Positions 11,216 to 28,273 of a stretch of 45,838 bases of DNA are shown one piece after another. Within the stretch, counting starts at the first letter, position 1, and each line of letters opens with the position of its first letter. This DNA is from an uncultured Mediterraneibacter sp. (GTDB lineage: Bacteria > Bacillota > Clostridia > Lachnospirales > Lachnospiraceae): positions 1 to 45,838 of the forward strand of contig CALWDM010000014.1 in NCBI GenBank assembly GCA_944376695.1, read 5' to 3'. The notes below the pieces were generated by a model. The model was given only the letters and a program-made list of their open reading frames with translations, made no database searches and was not told the origin of the DNA. Both the position numbers and the translations under genes were made by a program.

Positions 11216-11239
11216 GGATATCAAAGGAGAAATAATAAT

Positions 11240-12574: not shown

Positions 12575-12592
12575 CAGAGGGAGGTAGAAGTT

Positions 12593-13042
12593 ATGGGAAT
12601 CACCATCCAACAGTTATCGGTATTTTTGGAAAACCGTGAGGGAAGGCTGGACGAAGTGCTCTCTGTCCTTGCAGGAAATGATGTGAACATCGTTGCTCTC
12701 AGTCTGGCGGATACAACAGAGTACGGTATGCTCCGCATGATTGTATCCGATCCGAATAAAGGGAAAGCAGTCCTGAAAGAAAACGGTATTACAGCCATGC
12801 TCACTGATGTTGTGGCGCTCAGGGTCCCTCACGAGACAGGATCACTCAGCCGCGCCATGCACCAGATCGTGGAGGGCGAGGTGAATATTGAGTACATGTA
12901 TGCATTTGCCAACGGCGAGGATGCTTCTGCTGTCCTCAAATGCGATGACCCGGCAAGGGTAGTGGATATCCTGCGGGGAAGCGGATTCGACGTGTGGGAA
13001 GCTTCGGAAGCGTATGTGTCCAATATAAAGAGCGCATTGTAA
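12593..13042 (+). CDS. Tandem ACT-domain protein (second copy)
   Basis: A 149-residue paralogue of the ACT protein at 10796, starting MGITIQQLSVFLENREGRLDEVLSVL and with a second ACT domain carrying EVNIEYMYAFANGED. The alignable motifs (FxEN, GxLxxVxSVL, VNIxYxYxF) are shared between the copies, but most residues differ. It ends the operon: a strong terminator follows about 80 bp downstream. Its likely role is an amino-acid-responsive partner of the adjacent ligase; this is inferred from gene pairing only. Confidence 0.85.
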   Translation: MGITIQQLSVFLENREGRLDEVLSVLAGNDVNIVALSLADTTEYGMLRMIVSDPNKGKAVLKENGITAMLTDVVALRVPHETGSLSRAMHQIVEGEVNIEYMYAFANGEDASAVLKCDDPARVVDILRGSGFDVWEASEAYVSNIKSAL

Positions 13043-13120
13043 AGGACACATTGCAAAGAACGCATTGCGAAGAACAGCGTTTTTCCTGTCACACATCCGT
13101 AACAGGTTAAAACAATAAAA

Positions 13121-13183
13121 ACAGAGCTGCCGTATCAAAGGTCGGAAACGATCCAAACCAATGATACGGCAGCTCTGTTTTTT
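13121..13183 (+). terminator. Bidirectional terminator between the aryl-acid operon and csp
   Basis: A perfect 17-bp stem (13121-13137 with 13162-13178) has A residues on the left and a T run on the right (13177-13183). Converging genes on both sides make a two-way terminator likely. Confidence 0.9.
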
Positions 13184-13260
13184 AATCGCATTTCTCAGTA
13201 TAGCTTTTTAATAATAAATCAAGTCTGTTTATATATTAAAAGGTACATTAAAAAATCTGA

Positions 13261-13458
13261 TTAAAGTTTTACTACATTTGTCGCCTGCGGTCCTTTCGCG
13301 CCTTCTGTTACTTCGAATTCCACAGCCTGGCCTTCCTCCAGAGTTTTGAACCCATCCATTACAAGTCCTGAGTAGTGAACGAAGATATCGTTCCCCTCTG
13401 AATCGGAGATGAATCCATAGCCCTTCTGGTTATTAAACCATTTTACTGTACCTGTCAT
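13261..13458 (-). CDS. Cold-shock protein, CspA family
   Basis: A 65-residue single cold-shock (OB-fold) domain beginning [17 protein letters not shown], with RNP1-like KGYGFI and RNP2-like DIFVHY motifs for single-stranded nucleic acid binding. The ATG at 13458 is preferred over an ATG five codons upstream because GGAGGGC lies within those extra codons at ideal spacing. Proteins of this family act as RNA chaperones and may be constitutive or cold-induced. The gene has its own promoter about 70-95 bp upstream and a short A/T-rich leader. It is monocistronic. Confidence 0.95.
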
Positions 13459-13527
13459 TGTGTTGCCCTCCATTTAAGAAAAATAAATAAGTTTCTGTAC
13501 TGCCCTGCTGAGGAACAATACTGGCTC

Positions 13528-13556
13528 AGTGTAGCATGTTTACCAATAAAAGTCAA
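13528..13556 (-). promoter_or_regulatory. Promoter of the cold-shock gene
   Basis: On the minus strand TTGACT (13551-13556), a 17-bp spacer and TACACT (13528-13533) preceded by TGC. The predicted start gives a leader of about 60 nt. Confidence 0.7.
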
Positions 13557-13603
13557 CGGATTTCTATGATGTCCCACAAAATTATACAAAAAACCGGGGA
13601 GGC

Positions 13604-13632
13604 TTGTATTTGCAGAGGCAGTCAATTAGAAT
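13604..13632 (+). promoter_or_regulatory. Promoter of the first Rrf2 gene
   Basis: TTGTAT (13604-13609), 17-bp spacer, TAGAAT (13627-13632), about 34 bp before the ATG at 13666. Confidence 0.6.
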
Positions 13633-13665
13633 GGGGGCAGAAGGTATATGAAAAGAGGAATCGCT

Positions 13666-14091
13666 ATGAAAATTTCAACAAAGGGAAGGTATGCCCTGGA
13701 GATCGCTGTGGATCTTGCGATGCACGCTGATTGCGACCACCGGGAGAGCCTGAAGAATATTGCCCGCCGGCGGGGGCTGTCCGAAAAATATCTGGAGCGG
13801 ATCGTGAAAATGCTGTACAGCGCCGGGATTGTATCCTCCGCCAGAGGCGTCCGGGGCGGATACTGTCTGGCAAAAGATGCGCGGGAGATCACTCTGCTGG
13901 AAATACTGGAGGCGTCCGAGGGTGAGCTCGCACCCGTGCCATGTCTGACGCACAGGCCGGACTGTGGTATCGAATGTGATCGATGCCCCACAAGAGAGAT
14001 GTGGGGGGATATGTGGCAGATCATAAAAAAGGCTGCGGGGGAAGTCACGGTGGCGGATGTGTGCACGAAATCCAGATTTAATTTATATTGA
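13666..14091 (+). CDS. Rrf2 family transcriptional regulator with cysteine cluster
   Basis: The product is 141 residues from ATG 13666, chosen because the family starts MKISTKGRYAL and AGAGGA lies seven bases upstream; an ATG six codons earlier is possible. The N-terminal winged helix contains LKNIARRRGLSEKYLERIVKML and ARGVRGGYCLAKD, typical of Rrf2 DNA-binding domains. Near residues 93-108 are four cysteines (CLTHRPDC, then GIEC, then DRC), a pattern compatible with an Fe-S cluster as in IscR, NsrR or RsrR; the ligand set cannot be fixed by eye. It has its own promoter and lies 78 bp upstream of a second Rrf2 gene that has no cysteine. Targets are unknown. Confidence 0.88.
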   Translation: MKISTKGRYALEIAVDLAMHADCDHRESLKNIARRRGLSEKYLERIVKMLYSAGIVSSARGVRGGYCLAKDAREITLLEILEASEGELAPVPCLTHRPDCGIECDRCPTREMWGDMWQIIKKAAGEVTVADVCTKSRFNLY

Positions 14092-14116
14092 CATAGTGGG
14101 AATTTGCTGGTATAAC
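14088..14116 (+). promoter_or_regulatory. Promoter of the second Rrf2 / sulfur operon with GGAATT repeats
   Basis: A near-consensus promoter: TTGACA (14088-14093), 17-bp spacer, TATAAC (14111-14116). GGAATT occurs inside the spacer (14099-14104) and again at 14147-14152, just before the ribosome site. These are candidate operator half-sites for an Rrf2 protein. Confidence 0.7.
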
Positions 14117-14169
14117 TTATATTATATAATACATATCAAAAAAGTAGGAATTAGGAGTGTGGTGCACAA

Positions 14170-14610
14170 ATGAAGCTGTCTACGAAAGGAAGATATGGAC
14201 TTCGCGCTCTGGTTGATCTTGCCGCAAATGAAGAGGGAGAGGCGGTTTCACTGGCCCGGACTGCGCAGAGGCAGAAGCTGTCGCTGAATTATCTGGAGCA
14301 GGTATTCGGGATGCTGCGCAGGGCGGGAATCGTGGTCAGTGTAAAGGGTTCTGGCGGAGGATTCCGGCTGAAACGGGATATGGATGATATCACAGTGAAA
14401 GAAATACTGGAAGCGCTGGAAGGAAAGTTTTCCATTGCGGAAGATGCCGGCGAGGATACGCAGGATCCGGTTCAGAACGCGCTCAGAGACCTTCTATGGG
14501 ATGAGATCGACAGGAGAGTCAATCAATTCCTCCAGGAAAAAACCCTCGGAAGTCTGGTCAGAGAGTACCGGGAAAATCTGGAAACAGGAACGATCATGTA
14601 TTATATCTGA
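14170..14610 (+). CDS. Rrf2 family regulator, cysteine-free, CymR-like
   Basis: A 146-residue Rrf2 protein: MKLSTKGRYGLRALVDLA, then the recognition region LSLNYLEQVFGMLRRAG and VKGSGGGFRLKRD. It contains no cysteine at all, so it cannot hold the Fe-S cluster of IscR-type members. Cysteine-free Rrf2 proteins include CymR, the cysteine-metabolism repressor that works with CysK in Bacillus and Staphylococcus. Here the next two genes are an O-acetylhomoserine sulfhydrylase and cysK, which makes a CymR-like role the best guess. The gene follows a strong promoter with possible operator repeats, so autoregulation is plausible. The CymR assignment is inferred from context and missing cysteines. Confidence 0.85.
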   Translation: MKLSTKGRYGLRALVDLAANEEGEAVSLARTAQRQKLSLNYLEQVFGMLRRAGIVVSVKGSGGGFRLKRDMDDITVKEILEALEGKFSIAEDAGEDTQDPVQNALRDLLWDEIDRRVNQFLQEKTLGSLVREYRENLETGTIMYYI

Positions 14611-14656
14611 CAATAAGAAGTCTGCTGAACAGAAAATGGGAAAGGAAGGTAACGGG

Positions 14657-15940
14657 ATGGAAAGAGAGTTAAAATTTGAAACACTGCAGCTGCATGCGGG
14701 ACAGGAGGAGCCGGATCCGGTGACGGACGCCAGGGCAGTGCCTATCTATCAGACGACATCATATGTTTTTCGCGACTGCCAGCATGCGGCGGCCAGGTTC
14801 AGTCTGGCAGAGGCGGGGAATATATATGGAAGGCTGATGAACCCTACCCAGGGAGTGTTTGAAACCCGCATTGCGGAACTTGAGGGAGGCAGCGCTGCTC
14901 TGGCGGTGGCGTCCGGAGCAGCGGCGATCACGTATACATTTCAGAATCTCGCAAAAGCGGGAGACCATATTGTTGCTTCAAAATACATTTACGGCGGCTC
15001 CTACAATCTCCTCGAGCATACGCTGAGAGAGCAGGGAATCTCGACAACATTTGTTGATCCGGATGAGGAAGGAAGCTTTGAGTCTGCGATCCGGGATAAT
15101 ACAAAGGCTGTATTTATCGAGTCGATCGGAAACCCGAACGCAAACCTTGCGGACATCCGGAGTGTTGCGGAGACTGCGCATGCGCATGGAATTGCGCTTG
15201 TTGTGGATAATACCTTTGCCACGCCCTATCTGCTCCGGCCTTTTGACTATGGGGCTGATATCATCGTACATTCTGCAACTAAGTTTATCGGCGGGCACGG
15301 GACAGCTCTGGGAGGAGTAATTATAGAGAGCGGGAAGACGGACTGGAAGTCTTACGGCAGATACCCGCAGCTTACGACTCCTGATCCGAGCTATCACGGG
15401 GTGATTTTTGCGGATGCGGCCGGACCGGCGGCGTTTGTGACAAGGATTCGGGCAGTGCTTCTGAGAGATATGGGAGCGGCAGTGGCTCCTCTTCATGCCT
15501 TCCTTTTCCTCCAGGGGCTTGAGACACTCTCGCTGAGGGTGGAGCGGCACATTGAAAATACAGAGAAGGTGGTGGCATTCCTGGAAGCGCATCCAAAAGT
15601 GTCTGTGGTGAACCATCCCTCCCTTTCGGACAGTCCCTATCATGATCTTTATAAGGAATATTTCCCGAAGGGGGGCGCATCGATCTTCACATTTGAAATC
15701 AATGGCACAGAGGAGGATACAAAGAGATTTATCGACCGTCTTAAGATCTTTTCCCTGCTGGCGAATGTGGCGGATGTGAAATCTCTGGTCATCCATCCTG
15801 CAAGCACTACTCATTCTCAGATGACAGCCGATGAGCTGGCAGCCTCCGGGATCCGTCCGAATACGGTGAGAGTGTCTGTCGGTACGGAACATATTGACGA
15901 TATACTCTGGGATCTCGGGCAGGCTCTGGAGACGGTGTGA
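14657..15940 (+). CDS. metY: O-acetylhomoserine sulfhydrylase (aminocarboxypropyltransferase)
   Basis: The product is 427 residues from ATG 14657, placed after AAGGAAGG; this gives the family's usual start ([12 protein letters not shown]) and length. It is a PLP enzyme of the Cys/Met metabolism group. The Schiff-base lysine is Lys209 in [11 protein letters not shown], and TTSYVFRD and YGRLMNPTQ are family motifs. It makes homocysteine from O-acetylhomoserine and sulfide in the cytoplasm; some members also act on O-acetylserine. It lies 46 bp after the CymR-like regulator and 63 bp before cysK, so the three probably form one sulfur operon. Confidence 0.95.
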
Positions 15941-16003
15941 TGTACATGTAACAATGATAGCGTAAATAAAAATGAAAGATTACGACAGAAAGGAAGATGA
16001 ATA

Positions 16004-16930
16004 ATGAAAGTGTATCAGAGCATAACAGAACTGGTGGGGAAGACTCCCCTCCTGGAAGTGAAAAATATTGAAAGAGAAAAGGGACTGAAGGCGAAGGTGC
16101 TTGTTAAGCTGGAATATTTTAATCCGGCAGGAAGCGTAAAGGACCGGGCTGCTCTCAGCATGATTACAGAGGCAGAGAAGTCGGGAAGAATACAGCCGGG
16201 AGCCACCATCATTGAGCCGACCAGCGGCAACACGGGGATCGGTCTTGCCAGCGTGGCTGCGGCAAGAGGGTATAAGGCAGTCTTTGTAATGCCGGAGACT
16301 ATGAGTATAGAGAGAAGGAAGCTCCTGCTCGGATACGGCGCCAGGATCGTGCTCACTGAAGGGGCAAAAGGCATGAAAGGAGCGATAGAGAAGGCTGCGG
16401 AACTGGAAAAGGAAACCGAGAACGCAGTGGTGCTCGGACAGTTTGTAAACCCGGCGAATCCGGACGCTCACTATCGGACGACAGGACCTGAGATATGGGA
16501 GGACACGGAAGGAACGGTAGATATTTTTATCGCCGGCGCAGGAACCGGCGGAACAGTGACGGGTGTTGGCCATTATCTGAAAGAAAAGAAAGCAGGGATC
16601 AGGATCATTGCGGCAGAGCCCGCGGCTTCCCCCGTTCTTTCCGGCGGAAAGCCGGGACCCCATGGACTTCAGGGGATCGGAGCGGGGTTTGTGCCGGATA
16701 TTCTTGATACAAAGGTGTATGACGCTGTCAGCCAGGTGACAGAAGAGGAAGCGTATGAAGCCGCAAGGCTTCTGGCATCAACGGAGGGGGTCCTTGTTGG
16801 GATCACATCAGGCGCGGCGCTGCACACTGCTATCAGGGAGGCTGTGAAACCGGAAAATGAGGGGAAGACGATCGTAGCTGTTCTGCCGGATACAGGAGAA
16901 AGATATCTGTCCACTCCATTATTCAATTAA
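16004..16930 (+). CDS. cysK: Cysteine synthase A (O-acetylserine sulfhydrylase)
   Basis: A 308-residue PLP enzyme with the lysine in NPAGSVKDR (Lys46), the [12 protein letters not shown] substrate loop, the [10 protein letters not shown] phosphate-binding loop and the C-terminal [10 protein letters not shown] motif. All key elements of CysK are present and the length is normal. It forms cysteine from O-acetylserine and sulfide. In Bacillus, CysK also partners CymR as a sensor of O-acetylserine, and a cysteine-free Rrf2 gene starts this operon, so a similar pairing is possible here. No terminator is obvious in the 100 bp after the gene. Confidence 0.96.
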
Positions 16931-17035
16931 CACCGGATACCTACCTTCGTTTACGTGTAGATCTGTGAGGGATGTCATTGCCGGAAAACTCTGTTAAATA
17001 GTGCAACAAATTGCGGTTTCCCGCTGAAACAGCAA

Positions 17036-17064
17036 TTGAAAATTCAGAGGATGTGGTATATACT
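17036..17064 (+). promoter_or_regulatory. Promoter of ptsHI
   Basis: TTGAAA (17036-17041), 17-bp spacer, TATACT (17059-17064), about 39 bp before the HPr start codon. Its -10 region resembles that of the paaK operon. Confidence 0.7.
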
Positions 17065-17102
17065 GATAACAGAATCACGAAGTCAAAGGAGGACAAACAA
17101 TT

Positions 17103-17360
17103 ATGAAAGAATTCAAATACGTGGTTACAGATCCGGAGGGAATCCACGCAAGACCGGCAGGCATCCTTGTGAAACAGGCGGCAGGATATCAGTCAGCTGT
17201 CAAAATCACAAAAGGTGAAAAGACAGCTGATGCAAAGAGAATCTTTGGAGTCATGGGACTGGGTGTCAAGACCGGAGAAGAAGTTACGATCACTGCAGAA
17301 GGAGCAGATGAGGATATAGCGATCGCAGAATTAGAGGCATTCTTCAAAGAGAATTTATAG
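17103..17360 (+). CDS. ptsH: HPr family phosphocarrier protein with Arg at position 46
   Basis: An 85-residue HPr. His15 in GIHARPA is the phosphorelay residue that accepts phosphate from Enzyme I. The regulatory position 46, normally serine (KSIMGVMSLG in Bacillus), is arginine here: the segment reads AKRIFGVMGLG. This copy therefore cannot be phosphorylated by HPr kinase at the usual site. It can still serve sugar uptake, but not CcpA-type signalling through Ser46. It lies 18 bp upstream of ptsI with AAAGGAGG as ribosome site, so it is the PTS-transport partner of this Enzyme I. Confidence 0.95.
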   Translation: MKEFKYVVTDPEGIHARPAGILVKQAAGYQSAVKITKGEKTADAKRIFGVMGLGVKTGEEVTITAEGADEDIAIAELEAFFKENL

Positions 17361-17378
17361 TTTAAGGAGAATCAGGCC

Positions 17379-19001
17379 ATGATTACGATAAGCGGTAAAA
17401 GTGTATTTGGCGGCGTATCTATCGGAAAGCTTATGTTTTATAAGAGAAGCGAGAAGACGATCAAGAGGACGCACGTCGATGATGTGGATTCAGAGTGGAA
17501 GCGATTCCAGGAGGCAAAAGATACAGCGGTATCCCAGCTGAAAGAGCTGTACGACAAGGCGATCGGGGATGTGGGTGAAGCGAACGCCATGATCTTTGAG
17601 ATCCACCAGATGATGCTGGAGGATCTGGATTATCTTGAGTCCATCGAGAATATCATCCGCACTCAGGAGGTCAATGCAGAGTTTGCCGTAGCTACGACCG
17701 CAGATAATTTTGCGCAGATGTTCGCTGCAATGGATGACGCCTATATGCAGGGGCGCGCGGCGGATGTAAAAGATGTCTCCGAGCGCGTGCTGGACATCCT
17801 GTGCGGCGTTGACGCGGGGATGAAAGAGATGACAGAGCCGTGCATTATCGCGGCTGACGATCTGGCGCCGAGCGAGACAGTGCAGCTTGACAAGGATAAA
17901 GTACTTGGGTTTGCGACTATGTATGGGTCATCCAATTCCCATACCGCGATCCTTGCCCGCACGATGAATATCCCTGCCATAATCGGCATGGGAGAAGCGC
18001 TTCTGCCGGAGTACGACGGAAAGATAGCGGCCATCGACGGCTTTACAGGCACCCTTTATATTGAACCTGACGAAGAGACAATGAAAGAGATGCAGGACAA
18101 GCGGGCAAAAGACCTGGAGCAGAAAGCGCTTCTCGAGCAGCTCAAGGGCAAGGAGAATGTGACAAAGAGCGGTCAGAAAATTAATGTATACGCAAATATT
18201 GGAAATGTATCTGATCTGGGGGCGGTACTTAAGAATGATGCCGGCGGCATCGGTCTTTTCAGAAGTGAATTCCTTTATCTGGAGAATACAGATTTTCCGA
18301 CGGAAGACCAGCAGTTCTCTGTCTACAAGCAGGTAGCAGAGAGTATGGCAGGAAAGAAGGTTATCATCCGTACACTGGATATCGGCGCGGACAAGCAGGT
18401 GGATTATTTCGGGCTTGACAAAGAGGATAATCCGGCGCTCGGCTACCGCGCGATCCGTATCTGCCTGACAAGACCGGAAATCTTCAAGACACAGCTCCGC
18501 GCTCTTTACCGCGCGGCAGTTTATGGGAATATTTCCATTATGTTCCCGATGATTATTTCTGTGAGCGAAGTGCGGAAGATCAAAGAAATTATTGCTGAAG
18601 TGAAGGAAGAACTCAGGAGCGAAGGCATTCCGTTTAAGGATAACGTGGAGCTTGGTATCATGATCGAGACTCCTGCTTCCGTAATGGTCAGCCGCGAGCT
18701 GGCGAAGGAAGTCGATTTCTTCAGCGTAGGTACAAATGATCTGACCCAGTATACTCTGGCGATCGACCGTCAGAATTCCAAGCTAGATCCGTTCTATGAT
18801 CCGCATCATCCGGCGGTGCTCGCCATGATCAGGATGGCAGCTGAAAATGCTCACGCCGAGGGGAAATGGATCGGGATCTGCGGGGAGCTTGGCGCTGACC
18901 TTGAACTCACGGAAGAGTTCCTGAAAATGGGACTGGATGAGCTGTCAGTTTCCCCGGCAATGGTACTCCCGCTGAGGAAACGTATCAGAGAGTGCGAATA
19001 A
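17379..19001 (+). CDS. ptsI: PTS Enzyme I (phosphoenolpyruvate-protein phosphotransferase)
   Basis: At 540 residues it is slightly shorter than most Enzyme I proteins but complete. It has an N-terminal HPr-binding helical region, the active His188 in SSNSHTAILAR, the PEP-binding barrel with GGIGLFRSEFLYL and TLDIGADKQVDYF, and the signature DFFSVGTNDLTQYTLAIDR. It transfers phosphate from PEP to HPr in the cytoplasm. It is co-transcribed with ptsH. Its TAA stop (18999-19001) is the first three bases of the palindromic element's terminal repeat. Confidence 0.97.
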   Translation: MITISGKSVFGGVSIGKLMFYKRSEKTIKRTHVDDVDSEWKRFQEAKDTAVSQLKELYDKAIGDVGEANAMIFEIHQMMLEDLDYLESIENIIRTQEVNAEFAVATTADNFAQMFAAMDDAYMQGRAADVKDVSERVLDILCGVDAGMKEMTEPCIIAADDLAPSETVQLDKDKVLGFATMYGSSNSHTAILARTMNIPAIIGMGEALLPEYDGKIAAIDGFTGTLYIEPDEETMKEMQDKRAKDLEQKALLEQLKGKENVTKSGQKINVYANIGNVSDLGAVLKNDAGGIGLFRSEFLYLENTDFPTEDQQFSVYKQVAESMAGKKVIIRTLDIGADKQVDYFGLDKEDNPALGYRAIRICLTRPEIFKTQLRALYRAAVYGNISIMFPMIISVSEVRKIKEIIAEVKEELRSEGIPFKDNVELGIMIETPASVMVSRELAKEVDFFSVGTNDLTQYTLAIDRQNSKLDPFYDPHHPAVLAMIRMAAENAHAEGKWIGICGELGADLELTEEFLKMGLDELSVSPAMVLPLRKRIRECE

Positions 19002-19404
19002 ATCTGTATTTGCGGGAGAGTCCTCCGATTGGTTAAACGGACGAAAACCGTCGATTTGATCGGGGAGATTTTCGCCGCGGGCTGGGATATGGCTCTGGTT
19101 CCGGTTCCGTAATCCGGGAAAGACGTAAAAGGGAGAAAGTGTGGCTAAAAGCAATTGTCCGGCTGGAGATTCGCCTGTGGCTCAGGCATCCGCCGGACAA
19201 TTAACGCCGCGCTTTCTCCTTTTTACGTCTTTCCGGCTATAAGTTTCTGCTTTTAGCATTGTTCTGGATTTTGCAGTGATACTTACCTCGTGGAGCGGAG
19301 CCGATGCCAGCCATATCCCCGCGCTGAAAACGTCTTCAGCACAGCTGCGCTTCACTGTTTTCGAACGTTTGCCAATAGAATACTCCCCCGCAAATACAGA
19401 TTTA
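18999..19404. repeat. Palindromic intergenic element, copy 1
   Basis: About 400 bp without a plausible gene. It has perfect 18-bp terminal inverted repeats, TAAATCTGTATTTGCGGG at 18999-19016 and its complement at 19387-19404. Inside these, two arms roughly match each other in inverse order. A 23-bp inner stem follows (19117-19139 with 19212-19234, one mismatch), then an 11-bp stem (19153-19163 with 19192-19202) and an apical hairpin GCCTG-TGGCT-CAGGC (19173-19187). The whole element could fold into one long hairpin. The left repeat holds the ptsI stop and the right repeat holds the stop of the minus-strand ABC gene. The right arm shares a perfect 26-bp block (19291-19316) with copy 2 (28001-28026, inverted). 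I do not recognise the family; a non-autonomous mobile repeat or structured RNA is possible. Confidence 0.85.
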
Positions 19405-21123
19405 CATATTATAGTAGTGGGCGTATACGCCTCCTTTTGCGAGCAGGCTCTCATGTGTCCCCCGCTCTGCGATCCCGTCTTCGGTGATGACGATGATCTC
19501 ATCCGCGCCCCGGATCGTGGACAGCCTGTGAGCGATGGTGATGGTCGTCCGGTCTTTGGAAAGCTCTTCCAGACTCTGCTGAATCCAGCGCTCGCTTTCG
19601 TTGTCAAGGGCGCTTGTCGCTTCATCCAGGATCAGGATGGGCGGGTTTTTCAGGAAGACACGGGCAATGGAGATGCGCTGTTTCTGTCCCCCTGAGAGAC
19701 GGGCGCCGCGTTCTCCCACACAGGTGTCATACCCGTCCGGGAGTTCCCGGATAAAGTCGTGGATATTGGCGCGTTTTGCCGCCTCGATGATCTCGTCCAT
19801 GGAAGCGCCGGGCTTTCCGTAAGCGATGTTGTCCCGGATCGTACCCTCAAAGAGATAAACATCCTGCTGGACCATGCCGATCTGGCTTCGGAGGCTTTTC
19901 AGTGTCAGAGTGCGCACATCTTTGCCGTCGATGGTGATCTTTCCGCCGGTCACGTCGTAGAATCGGGGGAGGAGAGAGCAGATCGTTGTCTTCCCGCTCC
20001 CGGACGGGCCTACAAGGGCGATGGATTTCCCGGCAGGAATCTCGATGGACACATGGGACAGGACCGGTGTGTCATCGTCGCTGTAATGGAAGGATACGTC
20101 TTCATAGCAGACCCTTCCCTTTACATTTTCCAGAGGGCGGGCATCAGGGGCATCCTTGATTTCCGGCTCTGTCTCCATGACGTCCAGGAAGCGGCGGAAT
20201 CCGGCCAGGCCTTTCTGCATCATCTCGATGAGCTCTACGAGGATCTGGATCGGGCTGATGAAGATGCCGATATAAAGGGCATACATGGCGAGATCTCCGG
20301 CGTTCATGAGACCTTTGGCGATCAGGTACCCGCCGAATACCAGTGTGACAAGATACATCATGCCCTGGAAGAACAGGTTCCACCCCATAAAACCGCCCAT
20401 GCAGTTATAGTTGTTTTTCTTTGAAATCAGGAATGCATGATTGCTCTTTTTAAACTTTTCCCTCTCGATCTCCTCGTTGGCAAAAGACTGGACTACGCGG
20501 ATGCCTGCCAGCGTATCCTGGAGGCTGGAGTTTACATCCCCGATCTTCCGGCGGTTTTCCATAAATGTCTCCTGCATCCGCCGGTTCTGGCGGAAGGAGA
20601 AGACAAACATACAGAGCACCAGCGCGACGAGCGGCAGGGCAAGCCTCCAGTTGATCAGGAAGAGAAAGACAAAGGAGCCCGCGATCTTTACCACAGAGAT
20701 GAACAGATTTTCCGGGCCGTGGTGCGCGAACTCAGCGATGTCAAACAGATCAGACACGAGCTTGCTCATCATCTGGCCGGAATTGTTCCGGCTGTAATAG
20801 GAGAAAGAGAGCTTTTCGTAATGGTCAAACAGCTGCTGACGCATATCCCTCTCCATGTGCGCGCCCATCATATGCCCCTGGTAGCTCACATAATATTTGC
20901 ACAGGCTCTGGGTGACGTACATGATGAGAAGCCCTGCCGCGAGGAGGGGCAGAGCGCTCAGGATATCAGCGCTGTCCTTTGTGAAAAGCGTGTTTGTCAT
21001 AGTGCGCAGGATCTGAGGATATGCCAGATCCACTAAACTGATAAAAGCGGCGCAGATCAGGTCAATAAAAAAGACCGTCTTATACGGCGCGTAATAGCTG
21101 ATAAATTTTCTGAGTGTGTGCAT
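19402..21123 (-). CDS. ABC transporter, fused permease and ATP-binding protein
   Basis: A 573-residue half-transporter of the exporter type. The N-terminal membrane domain (roughly residues 1-310) has about six helices, starting KTVFFIDLICAAFISLV. The nucleotide-binding domain has Walker A GPSGSGKTT near residue 372, signature LSGGQKQR, Walker B ILILDEATS and a switch AHRLSTIR. Such proteins act as homodimers or heterodimers in export of lipids, drugs or peptides. The substrate cannot be read from sequence, and no second half-transporter lies beside it, so a homodimer is likely. An AAAGGAG ribosome site precedes ATG 21123. The gene's TAA lies in the terminal repeat of the palindromic element. 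Confidence 0.93.
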   Translation of the reverse strand: MHTLRKFISYYAPYKTVFFIDLICAAFISLVDLAYPQILRTMTNTLFTKDSADILSALPLLAAGLLIMYVTQSLCKYYVSYQGHMMGAHMERDMRQQLFDHYEKLSFSYYSRNNSGQMMSKLVSDLFDIAEFAHHGPENLFISVVKIAGSFVFLFLINWRLALPLVALVLCMFVFSFRQNRRMQETFMENRRKIGDVNSSLQDTLAGIRVVQSFANEEIEREKFKKSNHAFLISKKNNYNCMGGFMGWNLFFQGMMYLVTLVFGGYLIAKGLMNAGDLAMYALYIGIFISPIQILVELIEMMQKGLAGFRRFLDVMETEPEIKDAPDARPLENVKGRVCYEDVSFHYSDDDTPVLSHVSIEIPAGKSIALVGPSGSGKTTICSLLPRFYDVTGGKITIDGKDVRTLTLKSLRSQIGMVQQDVYLFEGTIRDNIAYGKPGASMDEIIEAAKRANIHDFIRELPDGYDTCVGERGARLSGGQKQRISIARVFLKNPPILILDEATSALDNESERWIQQSLEELSKDRTTITIAHRLSTIRGADEIIVITEDGIAERGTHESLLAKGGVYAHYYNM

Positions 21124-21157
21124 GAAAAATCTCCTTTCTTAACGACAACACAAGTAA

Positions 21158-21206
21158 CAGTTCAGCCGCGCCATTCGGAAAAACGCAAAGCCCGATGGCT
21201 GAACTG
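21158..21206 (-). promoter_or_regulatory. Stem-loop in the ABC transporter leader
   Basis: A perfect 10-bp stem (CAGTTCAGCC at 21158-21167 with GGCTGAACTG at 21197-21206) sits in the predicted 5' leader, between the promoter and the ribosome site. An inner CCAT...ATGG pairing may extend it. There is no T run after it on the minus strand, so it does not look like a plain terminator. Confidence 0.5.
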
Positions 21207-21217
21207 CTGCCAACACA

Positions 21218-21246
21218 ATATTAGCACATGATTTTCTGATTGACAA
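21218..21246 (-). promoter_or_regulatory. Promoter of the ABC transporter gene
   Basis: On the minus strand TTGTCA (21241-21246), 17-bp spacer, TAATAT (21218-21223) preceded by TGC. The leader would be about 88 nt. Confidence 0.6.
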
Positions 21247-21407
21247 GAATGCCGGGGATGTAATAAGGTAGTGACTGATACGGCGGCTGACGGGCGGACG
21301 CAGAGACTGGTCCCTGTTGGCACAGAACGGTACAGAACGCTGATGTACAGATCCAGGAGTCAGGAGAGCAGAGGATAAAAACAGGGAAGAAGAACGGGAG
21401 AGAACAT

Positions 21408-22346
21408 ATGAAGATTTATCTTGCCCCACTGGAGGGGATCACAGGGTGGATATTCCGCAGCGCGGTCCATGAGTGCTTCGGAGGGTTTGACAAATATTTC
21501 GTGCCTTTTATCAGGCCGAACCAGATGGGACATTTCAGCGCCAGGGAGAAGAAGGACATCCTTCCGGAGCATAATAAGGGCATGAGGACAGTGCCCCAGA
21601 TTCTTACCAACAGGGCGGATGATTTTCTCCGCACGGCTGAGAAGCTGAAAGACTATGGGTATGAGGAGGTCAACCTGAACCTGGGGTGTCCGTCAAAGAC
21701 TGTGGTGACAAAGGGGCGGGGCGCCGGATTTCTCGCGGAACCTGAGAGACTGGACCGGTTCCTGGGAGAGATCTTTGACAAATGTCCCATCAGGATCTCG
21801 CTTAAGACAAGGCTTGGTATGGAAGATGCGTCTGAGTTTGCGTCTCTGATGGAGATCTATAATAAGTACCCGGCGGAAGAACTGATCATCCATCCGAGAG
21901 TCCAGAAGGAGTTCTATAAAAGTACACCGGATCTTGGAGCATTTGCCGCGGCGGCGGACAGCAGCAGGAGTCCGGTATGCTACAACGGCGACATTTTCTC
22001 TGTGGAAGACTATGAGCGGTTGAAAGAACGTTTCCCGGAGACAGACCGGATCATGACGGGCCGGGGCATCCTGAAGGATCCGGCCCTTGGGAGAAGGCTC
22101 CGGGGCGGGAGAGGAGCGGACAAGGCGGAGCTGCGCCGGTTCCATGATCTTCTGTATGCAGGATACTGCGAGGAAATGTCAGGGGACAGGACGATTCTGT
22201 ATAAGATGAAGGAGCTGTGGACGTACCTTGCCCCATTGTTCACTGATTCGAAAAAATATGCGAAGAAGATAAAAAAGGCGGAGAAATGTGCTGTGTATGA
22301 ACAGATCATAGATGAATTATTTTCAGAGACAGAAGTTCAGCCATGA
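21408..22346 (+). CDS. tRNA-dihydrouridine synthase family protein
   Basis: A 312-residue flavoprotein of the Dus family: MKIYLAPLEGITGWIFR at the start, the catalytic cysteine Cys94 in NLGCPSKTV, and later IHPRVQKEFYK and CYNGDIFSVEDYERL segments that match the FMN-binding barrel. It reduces uridines in tRNA with NADPH. It differs from the DusB copy usually next to nifR3-type operons in having FVPFIRPNQMGHF after the first helix, so the exact subgroup is uncertain. A GGGAGAG ribosome site precedes the ATG. The gene is divergent from the ABC transporter and convergent with pyrG. Confidence 0.92.
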   Translation: MKIYLAPLEGITGWIFRSAVHECFGGFDKYFVPFIRPNQMGHFSAREKKDILPEHNKGMRTVPQILTNRADDFLRTAEKLKDYGYEEVNLNLGCPSKTVVTKGRGAGFLAEPERLDRFLGEIFDKCPIRISLKTRLGMEDASEFASLMEIYNKYPAEELIIHPRVQKEFYKSTPDLGAFAAAADSSRSPVCYNGDIFSVEDYERLKERFPETDRIMTGRGILKDPALGRRLRGGRGADKAELRRFHDLLYAGYCEEMSGDRTILYKMKELWTYLAPLFTDSKKYAKKIKKAEKCAVYEQIIDELFSETEVQP

Positions 22347-22365
22347 GGGAAATCTCATGGCTGAA
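22336..22365 (+). terminator. Hairpin between converging dus and pyrG
   Basis: A perfect 12-bp stem (22336-22347 with 22354-22365) with a 6-nt loop overlaps the dus stop codon and ends 7 bp from the pyrG stop. The following T tract is weak on both strands, so termination strength is uncertain. Confidence 0.5.
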
Positions 22366-22372
22366 AGCATTT

Positions 22373-23980
22373 CTATTCCTGCTGTCTTTTCAGGGCGGCT
22401 TCCACAAACCCTTTGAACAGCGGGTGCGGCCGGTTCGGTCTGGATTTTAGCTCAGGATGCGCCTGGGTGGCGATAAACCACGGGTGGGACGGGATCTCGA
22501 TCATCTCGACAATGCGGTTGTCAGGAGAAAGGCCGCACAGTGACATGCCGTGGCTTTCCAGATCTTCACGGTAGTCGTTGTTTACCTCATATCTGTGGCG
22601 GTGGCGTTCACTGATTTCCTTTTTCCCGTACAGGCGGGCAGCCAGGGAGCCGTCCTTTAATACACACGGATAGGCGCCGAGGCGGAGCGTGCCCCCGATA
22701 TCTTCTACGCCGATCTGATCCTCCATGATGTGGATGACCGGGTGGGTCGTGTCAGGCTTTAACTCCATGCTGTGAGCATCATTGTAGCCAATCGCCTCCT
22801 GTGCGAATTCCACGATCGCAAGCTGCATCCCGAGGCATAGGCCGAGGAAGGGGACGCCGTGAGTGCGGGCATAGCGGATCGCCTCGATCTTGCCGTCGAT
22901 CCCGCGGTGGCCGAACCCTCCTGGGACGAGGATGCCGCTTACACCGGAGAAAATCTCATCTGCGTTTTCCGCGGTTACTTTTTCAGAATCCACCCATTTG
23001 ATGTTCACTGTTGTGTGGGAATAGATCCCACCGTGTTTCAGCGCTTCCACGACACTGATATAGGCATCGTGGAGCTGGATGTATTTCCCCACAAGGGCAA
23101 CCGTCACTTCCTGTGTCGGATGTTTCAGCTTATCCACCATTTCAGTCCAGTCTTTCAGGTCCGGTTCCGGGCAGTCCAGATGGAGGCACTCGCAGACAAC
23201 CTGCGCCAGACGTTCCTTTTCCATTGCGAGAGGGGCTTCGTAAAGGTATTCCACATCGAGGTTCTGAAGCACATGGCTTGCGGGAAGGTTGCAGAACAGG
23301 GAAATCTTGTCCTTCATGTCAGAGGTCAGCGGATACTCGGAGCGGCATACGATGATATCCGGCTGGATGCCCATGCCCTGGAGCTCTTTTACGCTTGCCT
23401 GGGTCGGTTTCGTCTTCATCTCCTGTGAAGCGCGGAGATAGGGGATAAGCGTCACATGGATGAGGATGACGTTTTCCCGTCCTTTTTCGTGCTGGAACTG
23501 GCGGATGGATTCAAGGAAAGGCTGGCTTTCGATATCTCCGACAGTGCCGCCAACCTCGATGATGGCGATCTCCGTATCCTCAGCAGCGGGATTGCGGTAG
23601 AAGCGGCTTTTGATCTCATTGGTAATGTGGGGGATGACCTGGACCGTGCCCCCGCCGAAGTCTCCGCGCCGTTCTTTCTGGAGCACAGACCAGTAGATCT
23701 TCCCGGTTGTGACGTTGGAATTCTTTGTCAGGCTCTCATCGATGAAACGCTCATAGTGTCCCAGGTCCAGGTCTGTCTCGGCCCCGTCGTCTGTGACGAA
23801 CACTTCCCCGTGCTGGACCGGGTTCATTGTGCCTGGGTCGATATTGATGTAAGGGTCGAACTTCTGCATGGTCACTGTGTATCCCCTTGCCTTCAAAAGC
23901 CGTCCCAGGGAAGCGGCTGTGATCCCTTTTCCCAGTCCGGATACGACGCCGCCTGTTACAAATACATATTTTACTGCCAT
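22373..23980 (-). CDS. pyrG: CTP synthase
   Basis: A 535-residue two-domain enzyme. The N-terminal synthetase domain begins [16 protein letters not shown] and has [11 protein letters not shown]. The C-terminal glutamine amidotransferase domain has the nucleophile in [11 protein letters not shown] (near residue 380) and the [10 protein letters not shown] motif. It makes CTP from UTP, ATP and glutamine in the cytoplasm. Length and all key motifs are normal. The ribosome site is AGGAGG just before ATG 23980. Its leader holds a strong hairpin with a T run, suggesting attenuation. Confidence 0.98.
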
Positions 23981-24020
23981 TGTACATGCCTCCTGTGTGT
24001 GATAATATTGAAACTTTCCC

Positions 24021-24096
24021 TTAAAAAAGAGTACAGCCTGACTATGGGAAGGAAGCCGCTCCGTTGCGGTCCTTTGTCCCAGGGTAGTCAGACTGT
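24021..24096 (-). terminator. Terminator-like hairpin in the pyrG leader (possible attenuator)
   Basis: On the minus strand the outer stem ACAG-t-CTGACTA pairs with TAGTCAG-g-CTGT (24033-24096), and an inner stem GGGACAAAGGACCGC pairs with GCGGCTTCCTTCCC. A run of six T residues follows (24021-24030 region). It lies between the pyrG promoter and its ribosome site. It could end readthrough from the upstream DUF1846 gene, regulate pyrG, or both. Confidence 0.7.
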
Positions 24097-24120
24097 AATA
24101 TGACTTAAAAATACTTTACT

Positions 24121-24149
24121 AGTATACACCCCGAAATGGGAAAATACAA
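24121..24149 (-). promoter_or_regulatory. Promoter of pyrG
   Basis: On the minus strand TTGTAT (24144-24149), 17-bp spacer, TATACT (24121-24126). It lies between the stop of the DUF1846 gene and the leader hairpin. Confidence 0.65.
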
Positions 24150-24155
24150 TCTTTT

Positions 24156-25628
24156 TTAAAGGATCGTGTGCTCGTATACTGCCTCGCATGTAAGCTGTAC
24201 GCCCAGCTTCTTAAAAATCTTGATGTCAACGTCTGAGAGCATGACCGAGGTATGAGCCTGACAGCCATACAGCTTCGGGAGCTGGGAGAGGGCAAGCCTT
24301 GCATCCGGGCTGGCTGCCGCGCTGGCAGAGAGCGCGATCAGCACTTCGTCCGTGTGCAGGCGCGGATTTTTGCTCTTTAAGTAATCGACTTTCAGCTTCT
24401 GGATCGGTTCGATGGACTCCGGTGAAATGATGTGGAGAGCATGATCCAGCCCTGCCAGCTCCTTTAATACATTGAGGAGGAGGGCAGCGGAGGCGCCGAG
24501 CAGGTTTGTTGTCTTCCCGGTGATGATCCTGCCGTCTTCAAGCTCCAGGGCAGCGGCAGGACCGCCGGTCTCTCTGGCGCGCTCCAGCGCTTTGACAGCC
24601 ACGGCGCGGTCAGCGACCGTGATCCCTGCCATGTTCATGAGCAGTTCGATCTTCTGCGCTTCCTTGTCAGACGCATCTCCCTTAACAAGCGAATTCAGGG
24701 CCGCGTAATAACGGCGGATGATCTCCTGCTTTGAAGCTTCCCCGCATGCCTCGTCGTCACAGATACAGTTCCCGGCCATGTTCACTCCCATGTCCGTGGG
24801 GGATTTGTACGGGCTTTCGCCGTAGATCTTCTCAAAGATCGTATTGAGGACAGGGAAGATCTCAACATCTCTGTTGTAGTTGACCGTTGTCTCACCGTAT
24901 GCTTCCAGATGGAAGGGGTCGATCATATTTACGTCATTCAGATCCGCTGTCGCCGCTTCATAGGCCAGGTTGACCGGGTGCTTGAGCGGCAGATTCCAGA
25001 TGGGGAAGGTCTCAAATTTCGCATAGCCCGCGTGGATCCCTCTTTTGTGCTCGTGGTAGAGCTGTGAGAGGCAGGTCGCCATCTTTCCGCTTCCGGGACC
25101 CGGGGCAGTCACAATCACAAGCGGACGGGTCGTGCGGATATAGTCATTTTTTCCGTATCCCTCATCGCTGATGATGAGAGGGACATTTGAAGGATACCCG
25201 GGGATCACATAGTGCAGATACACCGGGATATCCAGCTTCTCCAGCCTGTTTTTGAACAGGAGCGCGCTTTCCTGGCCGGAAAACTGTGTGATCGTCACGC
25301 TTCCCACATAGAGCCCCTGCTCCCGGTAGGTGTCGATCAGGCGGAGCACATCTGTGTCGTAGGTGATGCCAAGATCCCCGCGGATCTTATTCTTTTCGAT
25401 GTCTTTTGCGCTGATCACGATCACGATCTCCGCCTGGGCGCTCAGCTCTTTTAAAAGGCGCAGCTTGCTGTCCGGCGCAAAGCCCGGAAGCACGCGGGAC
25501 GCGTGATAGTCGTCGAACAGCTTTCCGCCAAATTCAAGGTAAAGCTTGTTGTCGAATTTGTTGATCCTGCTGCGGATGTGCTCAGACTGCATTTTCAGAT
25601 ACTTTTCATTGTCAAAACCGATTCTCAT
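24156..25628 (-). CDS. DUF1846 domain protein
   Basis: The 490-residue protein (MRIGFDNEKYLKMQSEHIRSRI) matches the DUF1846 family over its full length. Around residues 165-185 is a P-loop-like segment, IVTAPGPGSGKMATCLSQLY, suggesting nucleotide binding, and later come VNMAGNCICDDEAC and LLGASAALLLNVLK segments typical of the family. The biochemical function is not established to my knowledge, and nothing in the neighbourhood settles it. It is divergent from ftsH and has its own promoter. Confidence is high in the family and low in any role. Confidence 0.88.
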   Translation of the reverse strand: MRIGFDNEKYLKMQSEHIRSRINKFDNKLYLEFGGKLFDDYHASRVLPGFAPDSKLRLLKELSAQAEIVIVISAKDIEKNKIRGDLGITYDTDVLRLIDTYREQGLYVGSVTITQFSGQESALLFKNRLEKLDIPVYLHYVIPGYPSNVPLIISDEGYGKNDYIRTTRPLVIVTAPGPGSGKMATCLSQLYHEHKRGIHAGYAKFETFPIWNLPLKHPVNLAYEAATADLNDVNMIDPFHLEAYGETTVNYNRDVEIFPVLNTIFEKIYGESPYKSPTDMGVNMAGNCICDDEACGEASKQEIIRRYYAALNSLVKGDASDKEAQKIELLMNMAGITVADRAVAVKALERARETGGPAAALELEDGRIITGKTTNLLGASAALLLNVLKELAGLDHALHIISPESIEPIQKLKVDYLKSKNPRLHTDEVLIALSASAAASPDARLALSQLPKLYGCQAHTSVMLSDVDIKIFKKLGVQLTCEAVYEHTIL

Positions 25629-25750
25629 TTTCCATTCCCCACTTATCTAGTTTCTCTGTTTGGTATATATGACAGACCTCGGGCGGACCCGCCGGACGGC
25701 GCGGTATGCTCACCGCAGAGCAGACCGCCGGGAGGACATATTTCGTACCC

Positions 25751-25780
25751 AGTATACTATAAAAAGTCATGGTTTTACAA
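25751..25780 (-). promoter_or_regulatory. Promoter of the DUF1846 gene
   Basis: On the minus strand TTGTAA (25775-25780), 18-bp spacer, TATACT (25751-25756). The long GC-rich leader (about 120 nt) contains CCGGCGG and CCGCC repeats that may pair. Confidence 0.5.
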
Positions 25781-25799
25781 TGTTTTCATAATCTTTTTA

Positions 25800-25828
25800 T
25801 TGATTTATGCAAAACCTGTACTTATAAT
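25800..25828 (+). promoter_or_regulatory. Promoter of ftsH
   Basis: TTGATT (25800-25805), 17-bp spacer, TATAAT (25823-25828), 29 bp before the start codon. Confidence 0.75.
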
Positions 25829-25856: not shown

Positions 25857-27914
25857 ATGGATAACCAGAACAATAAGAATAATCCTAAAAATAACCGGCA
25901 GGGCTGGGGAGTGATTCTCATTACAACCCTGCTGGTCACTTTTATGGTATTGGGATTTTATTCTCTGATGCGCGGCACAGGTCCTGAGGAGATCAGTTAT
26001 GATAAATTCCTGGAGCTGGTCGACGATAAAAAGGTTGAGGAAGTCAGGCTGAACAGCAGCCGGATTTATATCGTCCTCACCGATGAGGCGAGGATCGAGG
26101 AGGCGAAGGAACGGGCGGAGAAACAGCAGCAGAGCGGCGGGATCCAGGGCGTGATGGGACAGTTTCAGGATCAGTTCCTCAGCCAGCTCCAGAACCAGGA
26201 GCAAAACCAGGGGCAGAACCAGGAACCGGAGGCCGATGATGCGGAGAAATCCCCGGATTATTATACGGGGTATGTCAATGACTATACGCTGGCGCAGAAA
26301 CTCGATGACGCTGGCGTAAAATTTAAAGGCGAGGTCCCGGATACAATGGGGCAGGTGTTCTTTGAGCTGTTCGTGACCATCCTTCTTCCGCTGGGACTGA
26401 CGGCGCTTCTGCTGTTTTATGTCATGAAGCGGATGACAAAGGGAAGCGGCATGATGGGCATCGGAAAGAGCAACGCCAAGATGTATATGGAGAAGGAGAC
26501 CGGCGTGACCTTCCAGGATGTGGCCGGGGAGGACGAGGCAAAGGAATCTCTGCAGGAAGTGGTCGATTTCCTGCATAATCCGGGCAAATACAGCGGCATC
26601 GGCGCAAAGCTGCCAAAGGGCGCGCTCCTCGTGGGACCGCCGGGAACCGGAAAGACGCTGCTCGCAAAGGCAGTGGCAGGCGAGGCAAAGGTACCCTTCT
26701 TCTCTCTGTCCGGTTCCGCGTTTGTGGAAATGTATGTGGGTGTGGGCGCTTCCCGTGTGCGCGACCTGTTCAAGCAGGCCCAGCAGATGGCGCCGTGTAT
26801 CGTATTCATCGATGAGATCGATGCCATCGGAAAGACCCGTGACACGGCAATGGGAGGCAATGACGAGAGGGAACAGACCCTGAACCAGCTCCTTGCCGAG
26901 ATGGACGGTTTTGATACAAACAAAGGGCTCCTCATCCTGGCGGCGACGAACCGTCCGGAGATTCTGGACCCGGCTCTTCTGAGACCGGGTCGGTTTGACC
27001 GGAGGATCATCGTGGATAAGCCGGATCTGAAGGGGCGTATCGACATTCTGAAAGTACATGCAAAAGATGTACGCATGGATGAAAGCGTAGACCTGGAAGC
27101 CATCGCCCTCGCCACGTCCGGAGCGGTTGGCTCAGATCTGGCGAATATGATCAATGAGGCTGCCATCAACGCGGTAAAACACGGGCGTCAGGTGGTAAGC
27201 CAGAAAGATCTCTTCGAGGCAGTGGAAGTCGTCCTTGTGGGAAAAGAGAAAAAAGACCGTATCATGAGCAAAGAGGAGAGAAGGATTGTCTCCTATCACG
27301 AGGTCGGACACGCCCTTGTGACAGCGCTCCAGAAAAATACAGAACCAGTCCAGAAGATCACGATCGTGCCGAGGACAATGGGGGCTCTGGGGTATGTGAT
27401 GCAGACTCCGGAGGAAGAGAAGTTCTTAAATACGAAAAAAGAGCTGGAGGCAATGATCGTAGTCGCTCTGGGAGGACGCGCGGCGGAGGAGCTCGTGTTT
27501 GACACGGTGACCACGGGCGCTGCAAATGATATCGAGCAGGCCACAAAGATCGCCCGCGCCATGATCACCCAGTACGGGATGTCAGACCGTTTCGGTCTGA
27601 TGGGACTTGAGTCCATCCAGAATAAATATCTGGACGGAAGGGCAGTATTAAACTGCGGAGAGGCAACGGCAGGAGAGATCGACGAAGAGGTCATGAAGAT
27701 GCTGAAAGCCGCTTACGCAGAGGCTAAGAGACTGCTCGGAGAAAACAGAGAAGCCCTGGATAAGATCGCAGCCTTCCTGATCGAAAAAGAGACGATCACA
27801 GGCAAAGAATTCATGAAGATATTCCGCGAGGTAAAAGGGATACCCGAGCCGGAAGAAAACGAAACAGAAAAAACCGGAGAAAAAGAAGGAAGGATCTCAA
27901 TGAAGCAAGAGTGA
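25857..27914 (+). CDS. ftsH: ATP-dependent zinc metalloprotease FtsH
   Basis: The product is 685 residues from ATG 25857, with AGGAGG at 25845-25850. It has a first membrane helix at about residues 18-36 and a second near 170-190. Between them is an extracytoplasmic domain with an unusual Gln/Asn-rich stretch (residues 88-125, including QNQEQNQGQNQE). The AAA domain has Walker A GPPGTGKT (from Gly260), Walker B IVFIDEIDAIG and an arginine-finger region RPGRFDRR. The protease domain has HEVGH (His481-His485). It degrades membrane and some soluble proteins. The C terminus is charged, with Glu/Lys repeats. Its TGA stop begins the second palindromic element. Confidence 0.97.
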   Translation: MDNQNNKNNPKNNRQGWGVILITTLLVTFMVLGFYSLMRGTGPEEISYDKFLELVDDKKVEEVRLNSSRIYIVLTDEARIEEAKERAEKQQQSGGIQGVMGQFQDQFLSQLQNQEQNQGQNQEPEADDAEKSPDYYTGYVNDYTLAQKLDDAGVKFKGEVPDTMGQVFFELFVTILLPLGLTALLLFYVMKRMTKGSGMMGIGKSNAKMYMEKETGVTFQDVAGEDEAKESLQEVVDFLHNPGKYSGIGAKLPKGALLVGPPGTGKTLLAKAVAGEAKVPFFSLSGSAFVEMYVGVGASRVRDLFKQAQQMAPCIVFIDEIDAIGKTRDTAMGGNDEREQTLNQLLAEMDGFDTNKGLLILAATNRPEILDPALLRPGRFDRRIIVDKPDLKGRIDILKVHAKDVRMDESVDLEAIALATSGAVGSDLANMINEAAINAVKHGRQVVSQKDLFEAVEVVLVGKEKKDRIMSKEERRIVSYHEVGHALVTALQKNTEPVQKITIVPRTMGALGYVMQTPEEEKFLNTKKELEAMIVVALGGRAAEELVFDTVTTGAANDIEQATKIARAMITQYGMSDRFGLMGLESIQNKYLDGRAVLNCGEATAGEIDEEVMKMLKAAYAEAKRLLGENREALDKIAAFLIEKETITGKEFMKIFREVKGIPEPEENETEKTGEKEGRISMKQE

Positions 27915-28273
27915 GATTTGTATTTGCGGGGAAGCCAGCTGATTGATGAAACGTCCGAAAACACCGAAGCAGATGTATCGAAGACGTATTCAGCGCGGGA
28001 ATATGGCTGGCATCGGCTCCGCTCCATGAGGCAAGTATAACAACAAAATCCGGAACTATGCGAAAAGCAGAAACTGGCAGGGGGCAACCCACCTTCGGCT
28101 CAGACAATCCCCTGCCAGTTTCAACGCATAGTTCCGGATTTTCAGTTATACTAAGCCTCATTCCGAAGTCGCCTCAACCAGCCATATCCTCGCGCTGAAA
28201 GGTGTTCGAAAAGGCGCTTCGCTGTTTTCTGGTTTTGCTCAAGACGGAAGGCTCCCGGCAAATCCAGATTTCA
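27912..28273. repeat. Palindromic intergenic element, copy 2
   Basis: This region lies between the ftsH stop and the uvrC promoter and holds no plausible gene. Its ends are imperfect inverted repeats (TGAGATTTGTATTTGCGGGG left; TGAAATCTGGATTTGCCGGG read from the right end). Inner stems are a perfect 18-bp pair (28045-28062 with 28125-28142) and a perfect 13-bp pair (28071-28083 with 28109-28121). The loop contains TTCGGCTCAG; copy 1 has GGCTCAG in its apical hairpin. Outer arms match copy 1, including a perfect 26-bp block (28001-28026), but the inner stems have different sequences in the two copies. The element may also end ftsH transcription. Confidence 0.85.

Follow-up and report, generated by a model that had tools for sequence, protein, structure and literature searches.

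What is the large palindrome that fills the space between ptsI and an ABC exporter gene in an uncultured Mediterraneibacter sp.? The locus lies in a window of 45,838 nucleotides (the whole stretch of DNA analysed, contig C14 of the 103 contigs of the 2.67-Mb genome G000). The preliminary description had presented the palindrome as a 0.4-kb element, either a non-autonomous mobile palindrome or a large folded RNA. The palindrome, here named W1, is real. Its terminal inverted repeats (TIRs) contain the perfect 18-bp arms reported and are 96% complementary over 23 nt, and a fold of 441 nt reached -208.5 kcal/mol against -133.8 (sd 6.3) for shuffled sequences (z -11.9; 0 of 100 shuffles as low). 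The inner stems, described as 23 and 11 bp, are present, but their arms are longer, at 29 nt (19117-19145 with 19206-19234, 90%) and 14 nt (19081-19094 with 19309-19322, 93%). W1 proper covers 19000-19403; the adjoining T at 18999 and A at 19404 are part of the stop codons of ptsI and the ABC exporter gene, with each of which W1 has two bases in common. As had been stated, W1 holds no transposase and no plausible gene of its own, the overlapping ORFs (at least 80 aa) being extensions from reading frames of the flanking ABC gene. A terminator scan restricted to loops of 3-8 found no terminator-like site within 19000-19403. Rfam 15 gave no match in the window, and nine matches in seven loci at E up to 5 all stayed below the gathering score, in line with the statement that this is not a recognised RNA family.

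The 0.4-kb unit itself did not hold up. The full composite of the family measures about 0.96 kb and consists of two hairpins of about 350 bp (A and B) in opposite orientation, flanking a centre of about 250 bp. The longest regular copies span about 0.72-0.96 kb, and in copy L032 hairpin A occupies about 1-352, the centre about 250 nt and hairpin B 603-956. Full-length copies (e.g. L032, L047, L156) carry the A core on one strand and the B core on the other, and the conserved element end, taken from a position table, is AAATCTG...CAGATTT. Judged by its homology to such copies, W1 is not a self-contained unit of 0.4 kb; it is a chimera of the composite in which an A side is followed by a B side (Table 1), and the chimera lies at a synteny breakpoint.

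Table 1. Coordinates of the palindromes, their parts and associated genes. Positions are those of the window except in the last row; E-values of the core model R2 are rough.
Feature	Position	Strand	Remarks
ptsI, PTS enzyme I	17379..19001	+	stop codon overlaps W1
W1, A-side/B-side chimera of the composite palindrome	19000..19403		404 bp
Left TIR of W1	18999..19021	+	its AAA forms positions 2 and 3 of the ptsI stop codon (TAA, 18999-19001)
Segment homologous to the left 239 nt of hairpin A in full-length copies	18999..19237	+
Core hairpin of W1, A type	19136..19215	+	unpaired TAAAAGCA / AAC and CTCAGGCA motifs; R2, E 1.2e-7
Segment homologous to the outer part (~160 nt) of hairpin B in full-length copies	19242..19404	+
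Right TIR of W1	19382..19404	-	forms positions 2 and 3 of the stop codon of the ABC exporter gene (19402-19404)
ABC exporter gene	19402..21123	-	convergent with ptsI; best NCBIfam match MsbA family, under the family cut-off
W2, stand-alone hairpin B	27914..28271		358 bp
Core hairpin of W2, B type	28052..28135	+	R2, E 1.7e-19
408-aa transposase gene in the centre of a full-length palindrome	L088 (G000:C4:59500-64000) 1728-2952	-

Derivatives of the composite comprise lone A hairpins, lone B hairpins, mixed A/B forms and remnants as short as 43 bp. From their make-up, the shorter copies, W1 included, look like products of deletion or recombination. TIR pairs were sought up to 1000 bp, and 133 pairs were reduced to 73 by flank identity. 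Among these 73 unique pairs, 36 span 345-363 bp, a class of single hairpins of which some are halves of longer copies, and the longest spans 958 bp. The centre was matched in 13 of the 14 copies of at least 800 bp, and no gene was found in it. Stop-free stretches in it extend to at most 81 codons in L032 and, in another frame, to 92 in L047; since 45 of 200 shuffles of the L032 centre attain 77 codons, the length of the open frame is by itself uninformative. In the centres of L047, L162, L169 and L036 one frame is open for 73-92 codons with similar translations, and it is broken in other copies.

The hairpin core was described by a model of 85 nt (R2) built from ten B hairpins and two diverged relatives, with no A-type sequence among them. 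It contains 29 pairs, and 25 of them show changes in both partners; the paired share of cells is 91%, falling to 33-45% when the partner is slid by 1-3 columns. Unpaired bases of the core are conserved as well, the B type having TAAAAACA opposite AAC, and AACTC opposite TCAGACA. R2 also finds the core of W1, whose A type was absent from its training, at a rough E of 1.2e-7.

The per-genome copy count proposed in the preliminary description was run with R2 over 58 genomes of the genus Mediterraneibacter. The core was present in 47 of them, in 45 with at least two copies, and the richest genome held at least 77; these counts are lower bounds, with at most 77 candidates scored per genome and stricter filters. 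The 11 genomes in which R2 found no core include two single-contig assemblies. The genome of the window has at least 43 core copies by R2. Its 17-base end pattern gave 82 matches with at most three mismatches against 3 for the reversed pattern, which bears out the repeated family that had been implied, and a nucleotide search of it with W1 returned at least 100 matches, several per copy. A similar end pattern matched 113 times in the relative G042 and its reversed form not once. Within the window, the TIR pattern (at most three mismatches) has 4 matches against 0.05 expected, and these are both ends of W1 and of a second copy, W2. The first base of W2 is the A of the TGA stop codon (27912-27914) of an FtsH-like gene. 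Immediately downstream of W2, at 28277-28305, lies a sigma-70-like promoter (TTGATT, 17, TATAAT).

Records with TIR stretches belonged mostly to Mediterraneibacter or to Lachnoclostridium sp. An76 (80 listed of at least 107 found), and phage and plasmid records searched with a full-length copy gave no match. One TIR match in viral contigs and six in unrelated named genomes (L207, L208, L220, L228, L231, L250) were set aside as chance, because they have no core and match only over about 20 end bases and shorter or weaker stretches. Many of the genomes are draft metagenome assemblies with contigs that end in repeats, and gene calls are from ORFs only. Many draft contigs of G071, G014 and G042 begin or end within palindromes, so the palindromes break assemblies of the genus. 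Among the papers listed from the open-licence literature of PubMed Central none treats this palindrome family, which does not imply its absence from print.

Copies are fixed to the 3' ends of genes, and the final base or two of an adjacent stop codon come from their AAATCTG termini. After removal of inner ends (by a flank filter) and of near-identical flanks, 281 ends were reduced to 217 unique outer ends; in 183 of these a frame of at least 60 codons ends nearby, and 34 are without an ORF. At 105 of the 183 ends the neighbour's stop codon shares one or two bases with the element; it starts at -1 for 73 of these ends and at -2 for 32. A stop codon starts within -3 to 0 at 118 of 183 family ends, compared with 7 of 66 control AAATCTG sites outside the family (4 at -1 and 3 at -2; the 66 are those with an ORF among 150 occurrences). 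Divided by type, TAA occurs 70 times at -1 and 15 times at -2, TGA 17 times at -2, and TAG 5 times at -3, 3 times at -4 and 3 times at -1, each type mostly sitting at the greatest overlap possible with AAATCTG. The rule has misfits, as stop codons lie outside -3 to 0 at 65 of the 183 ends.

ORF calling round 64 of the 73 copies (those with flanks of at least 330 nt) showed that the facing gene ends are 3' in 100 cases and 5' in 26, a count that includes inner ends of composites and ORFs entering the repeat (-18 to -20). The 62 classified sites comprise 37 convergent, 24 tandem and 1 divergent, against 6, 24 and 6 for adjacent ORFs of the window. In relatives that have no element at a given gene, the stop codon stands at the same place (G062 at L045 left, L048 right and L038 right), so the genes beside those elements have not been shortened. 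A misfit is the left gene of L038, which stops several codons earlier than in G062. At that locus G062 has, instead of the element, a stretch of 57 bp that ends in a T-run. At both sites compared in detail, L038 and ptsI in G042, the element occupies the position of the native intergenic region.

Comparison of ptsI among relatives gave a similar picture for a single gene end. The protein aligns to its last residue, followed by the stop codon, in all 30 loci inspected, and what comes after the stop differs. Many loci have an ordinary short intergenic region. A family element follows in G042, the start of an element at the contig end in G071, a diverged element in G060 and an element nine bases further on in G014, and G010 and G015 have short hairpins that are also matched by the core model. 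One gene end therefore bears different family members in different species. The site is kept between species and the A/B orientation is not. Typed pairs of orthologous ends were of the same type in 29 cases and swapped in 28 (6 and 11 for G000 against G042 alone), where typing left out 148 of 295 ends and 93 of 150 orthologous pairs, the pairs of several genomes at one site are not independent, and two of the same-type pairs compare G071 with Ca. M. tabaqchaliae, possibly one genome. Same-type ends had a mean identity of 0.87 for orthologous sites (29 pairs), 0.81 for paralogues of one genome (69) and 0.79 for unrelated sites in different genomes (562).

At W1, ptsI adjoins a gene that is located elsewhere in three relatives. 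Synteny breaks there against G042, G062 and G010, and this threefold breakpoint may reflect one event in the lineage of the window. Positions 4657-19237 correspond to 409-424 kb of G042, and 19383-27920 to 512-520 kb of the same contig. The two sides of W2 are 5.5 kb apart in G042, 3.2 kb in G062 and only 0.4 kb in G010. At the other edge of the first block is a hairpin with 17-nt arms (4589-4605 and 4616-4632; feature region 4589-4657); co-linearity with the fetched stretches of G042 and G062 ends beside it, at about 4650, and G010 is co-linear through it. In G042, ptsI adjoins an element of 812 bp and the ABC gene a palindrome of 43 bp. The latter (G042:C1:520341-520383) is near-perfect, has the ends of the family and is overlapped by the stop codon of the ABC exporter gene. 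Because each of the two genes thus adjoins an element of its own in G042, the simplest account of these sequences is that W1 arose by an exchange of partners between two elements, which would also account for its A/B make-up. Both flanks of an element were found at most about 1 kb apart at 6 of 10 sites in G042, 2 of 8 in G010, 1 of 6 in G062 and 0 of 3 in G012; these counts cover 11 of 16 sites, contain false breaks added by draft contigs and stand without a matched control of ordinary gene pairs.

How such a family came to occupy so many sites was considered under several explanations. Under a classical MITE model, the palindromes would be deletion derivatives of an insertion sequence with the same ends, cut and pasted by its transposase. 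Their sharp TIRs (AAATCTG...CAGATTT) and many copies suit that model, which we nevertheless consider improbable, given that 31 elements showed no target-site duplication at the boundary (lengths 2-12, offsets -6 to +6; z -0.8 to 1.5), that no longer version with the same ends was seen in the loci scanned, and that an exact overlap with stop codons is not expected from random insertion. The largest z of the duplication table, 3.0, falls at an offset inside the element, and the set includes one element, L060, that begins at an inner end. Facing TIR pairs of more than 1 kb turned up in only two cases among 129 fetched loci of at least 4 kb, namely the chance locus L228 and L372 of G042, which encloses a stretch co-linear with ordinary genes in the window; neither pair has a transposon inside. 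TIR pairs of G042, matched by eye, did not exceed about 963 bp among the matches listed, several listed ends being without a partner. The preliminary description had suggested looking for a related transposase with matching ends; no autonomous partner of that kind was seen in those 129 loci or among the matches listed for G042. No new insertion was caught, as all nine flanks checked in G042 run into family sequence there too. With no duplication, no autonomous partner and no new insertion seen, the earlier term "non-autonomous mobile palindrome" keeps its descriptive half, for the family is repeated and carries no transposase, and its mobility is a matter of interpretation.

A source of mobility outside the palindromes was considered in two forms. 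A REP-associated tyrosine transposase (RAYT) might move the family, as RAYT-like Y1 genes exist in the same genome and in relatives (NCBIfam REP_Tyr_transpos 69.1 and 64.4 bits, below the cut-off of 80), and REPs likewise sit at 3' ends with stop-codon overlap (PMC3733652). We regard this as very unlikely. The surroundings of 11 Y1 loci, up to 1.5 kb on each side, have no family match, and the RAYT-like genes of G000 and G042 bear GGGGTCTGACCCC at the 3' end instead. Any Y1 gene occurs in 41 of 47 genomes with the core and in 8 of 11 without it (p 0.35), a RAYT-like gene of at least 245 aa in 32 of 47 and 5 of 11 (p 0.18), and G057, at 100% completeness, has 29 core copies and no Y1 match. With no adjacency in the 11 loci and no co-occurrence over the 58 genomes, RAYT/Y1 was rejected as the driver. 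The RAYT-like Y1 gene with the GGGGTCTGACCCC repeat lies at 1441-2244 of L327 (G000:C19), and G042, G071 and G060 carry another RAYT-like type, 284 aa long. The other form would make the palindrome part of an insertion sequence found within one copy. The 408-aa gene in the centre of the copy at G000:C4 encodes what we take to be an IS110-family transposase, and the same junction recurs at the ends of contigs C56 and C40. Other fragments of this IS, judged by eye, lie outside palindromes (C84, C83, C28, C67), and a protein search of the genome returned one full copy and two distant relatives. It is extremely improbable that the palindrome belongs to this IS, which was rejected as the driver and appears to be a lodger, with fragments outside palindromes too.

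A different kind of explanation is a structured RNA or transcription boundary, in which a big 3'-UTR hairpin would have spread by duplication or conversion and been selected as an RNA terminator or stabiliser. A position where genes end (37 of 62 sites convergent, 24 tandem, 1 divergent), covarying stems with conserved loop bases, and the element at ptsI of G042 in the place of the native terminator region all accord with it. The strand on which an RNA would fold was compared through its G.U and A.C pairs. In the structure of one strand, G.U and A.C number 36 and 44 for hairpin A and 93 and 41 for hairpin B; among pairs predicted on both strands, they number 22 and 39 for A and 31 and 39 for B. 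On the core strand with the TCAGACA motif, G.U against A.C was 51/151 (123 rows, of 128), 25/46 (44 rows) and 16/23 (25 diverged rows), and 47/120, 23/39 and 15/18 without the strongest column, so that this strand carries no RNA signature in the form of a G.U excess. Read on the complementary strand, the same counts are a G.U excess in favour of an RNA (151/51, 46/25 and 23/16), clear in the redundant set and small in the diverged rows.

The "large folded RNA" of the preliminary description is thus weakened, with an ambiguous signal on the complementary strand and none on the motif strand, where G.U does not exceed A.C. We judge the RNA explanation unlikely. Pairs predicted on both strands lack a motif-strand G.U excess and reach only 39 against 22 and 39 against 31 on the other strand, there is no Rfam match, and W1 has no terminator-like site. 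Since a single copy carries its A core on one strand and its B core on the other, and orientation at orthologous sites is swapped in about half of the pairs, no fixed strand faces the neighbouring genes, and for the same reasons we favour a role of the hairpin as DNA. Covariation in a palindrome can also arise from hairpin-templated correction, as an alternative source to selection.

On balance, and with moderate confidence, we favour a family of REP/BIME-like extragenic palindromes, about ten times the size of REPs, that is kept at the 3' ends of genes and undergoes reshuffling through recombination. In this REP/BIME-like family the hairpin would matter as DNA, as a cruciform or a single-strand hairpin, and its unpaired bases, being conserved, point to recognition of the folded DNA by a putative trans-acting protein. 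Copies would invert in place and exchange with one another by recombination, and such exchange and inversion would reshuffle genes tail to tail while leaving them undamaged. The element would probably also terminate the transcripts of its neighbours, because the flush stop codon leaves no room for another terminator.

The comparison with REPs draws on PMC3733652, in whose main text the words Clostridi and Firmicutes do not occur. Like the REPs and BIMEs treated there, which adjoin 3' ends between convergent and tandem genes, the family is intergenic, of high copy number and placed at the 3' ends of convergent or tandem genes, and like BIMEs it pairs its units in opposite orientation. Its termini overlap stop codons as do those of GTAG REPs, which often supply the TAG stop codon of a flanking ORF (PMC3733652). 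Unlike REPs of 20-40 bp, its hairpins measure about 350 bp and its composite 0.96 kb; its ends are AAATCTG, with no GTAG or CGTC tag, and complete TAA and TGA; and it has conserved internal-loop motifs (PMC3733652). No RAYT is linked to the family, and CGTC REPs are likewise without associated transposase genes (PMC3733652). IS110-family elements target REPs (PMC1525189), and the IS that we assigned to IS110 sits in the centre of three copies; unlike those, it also occurs outside palindromes, so its preference for them is partial. With MITEs (reviewed in PMC10969869) the family has TIRs, many copies, strong folding and no gene found inside in common, and it differs in having no target-site duplication, no parental IS found and termini merged with stop codons. 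The family works like REP/BIME, and we do not file it as a member of that class.

A bolder version of the stop-codon link is possible, although we hold it to be doubtful: the hairpins would enter at stop codons, where a putative enzyme, of the host or of the element, would read the conserved unpaired bases of the folded core and swap the native terminator for a family hairpin, and later exchange and inversion between sites would make 3' ends interchangeable ports of rearrangement throughout the genus. If such entry were true, the element itself would be the end of the gene.

Because many draft contigs end within these repeats (e.g. in G071), gene order beside them should be read with care. For palindromes of the REP kind, 20-40 bp is the usual scale; here each hairpin takes about 350 bp and each copy about 1 kb, dense in one gut genus. 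The family marks a place of gene rearrangement, and its base-exact overlap with stop codons is a testable signature of how repeats choose, or come to occupy, the ends of genes.
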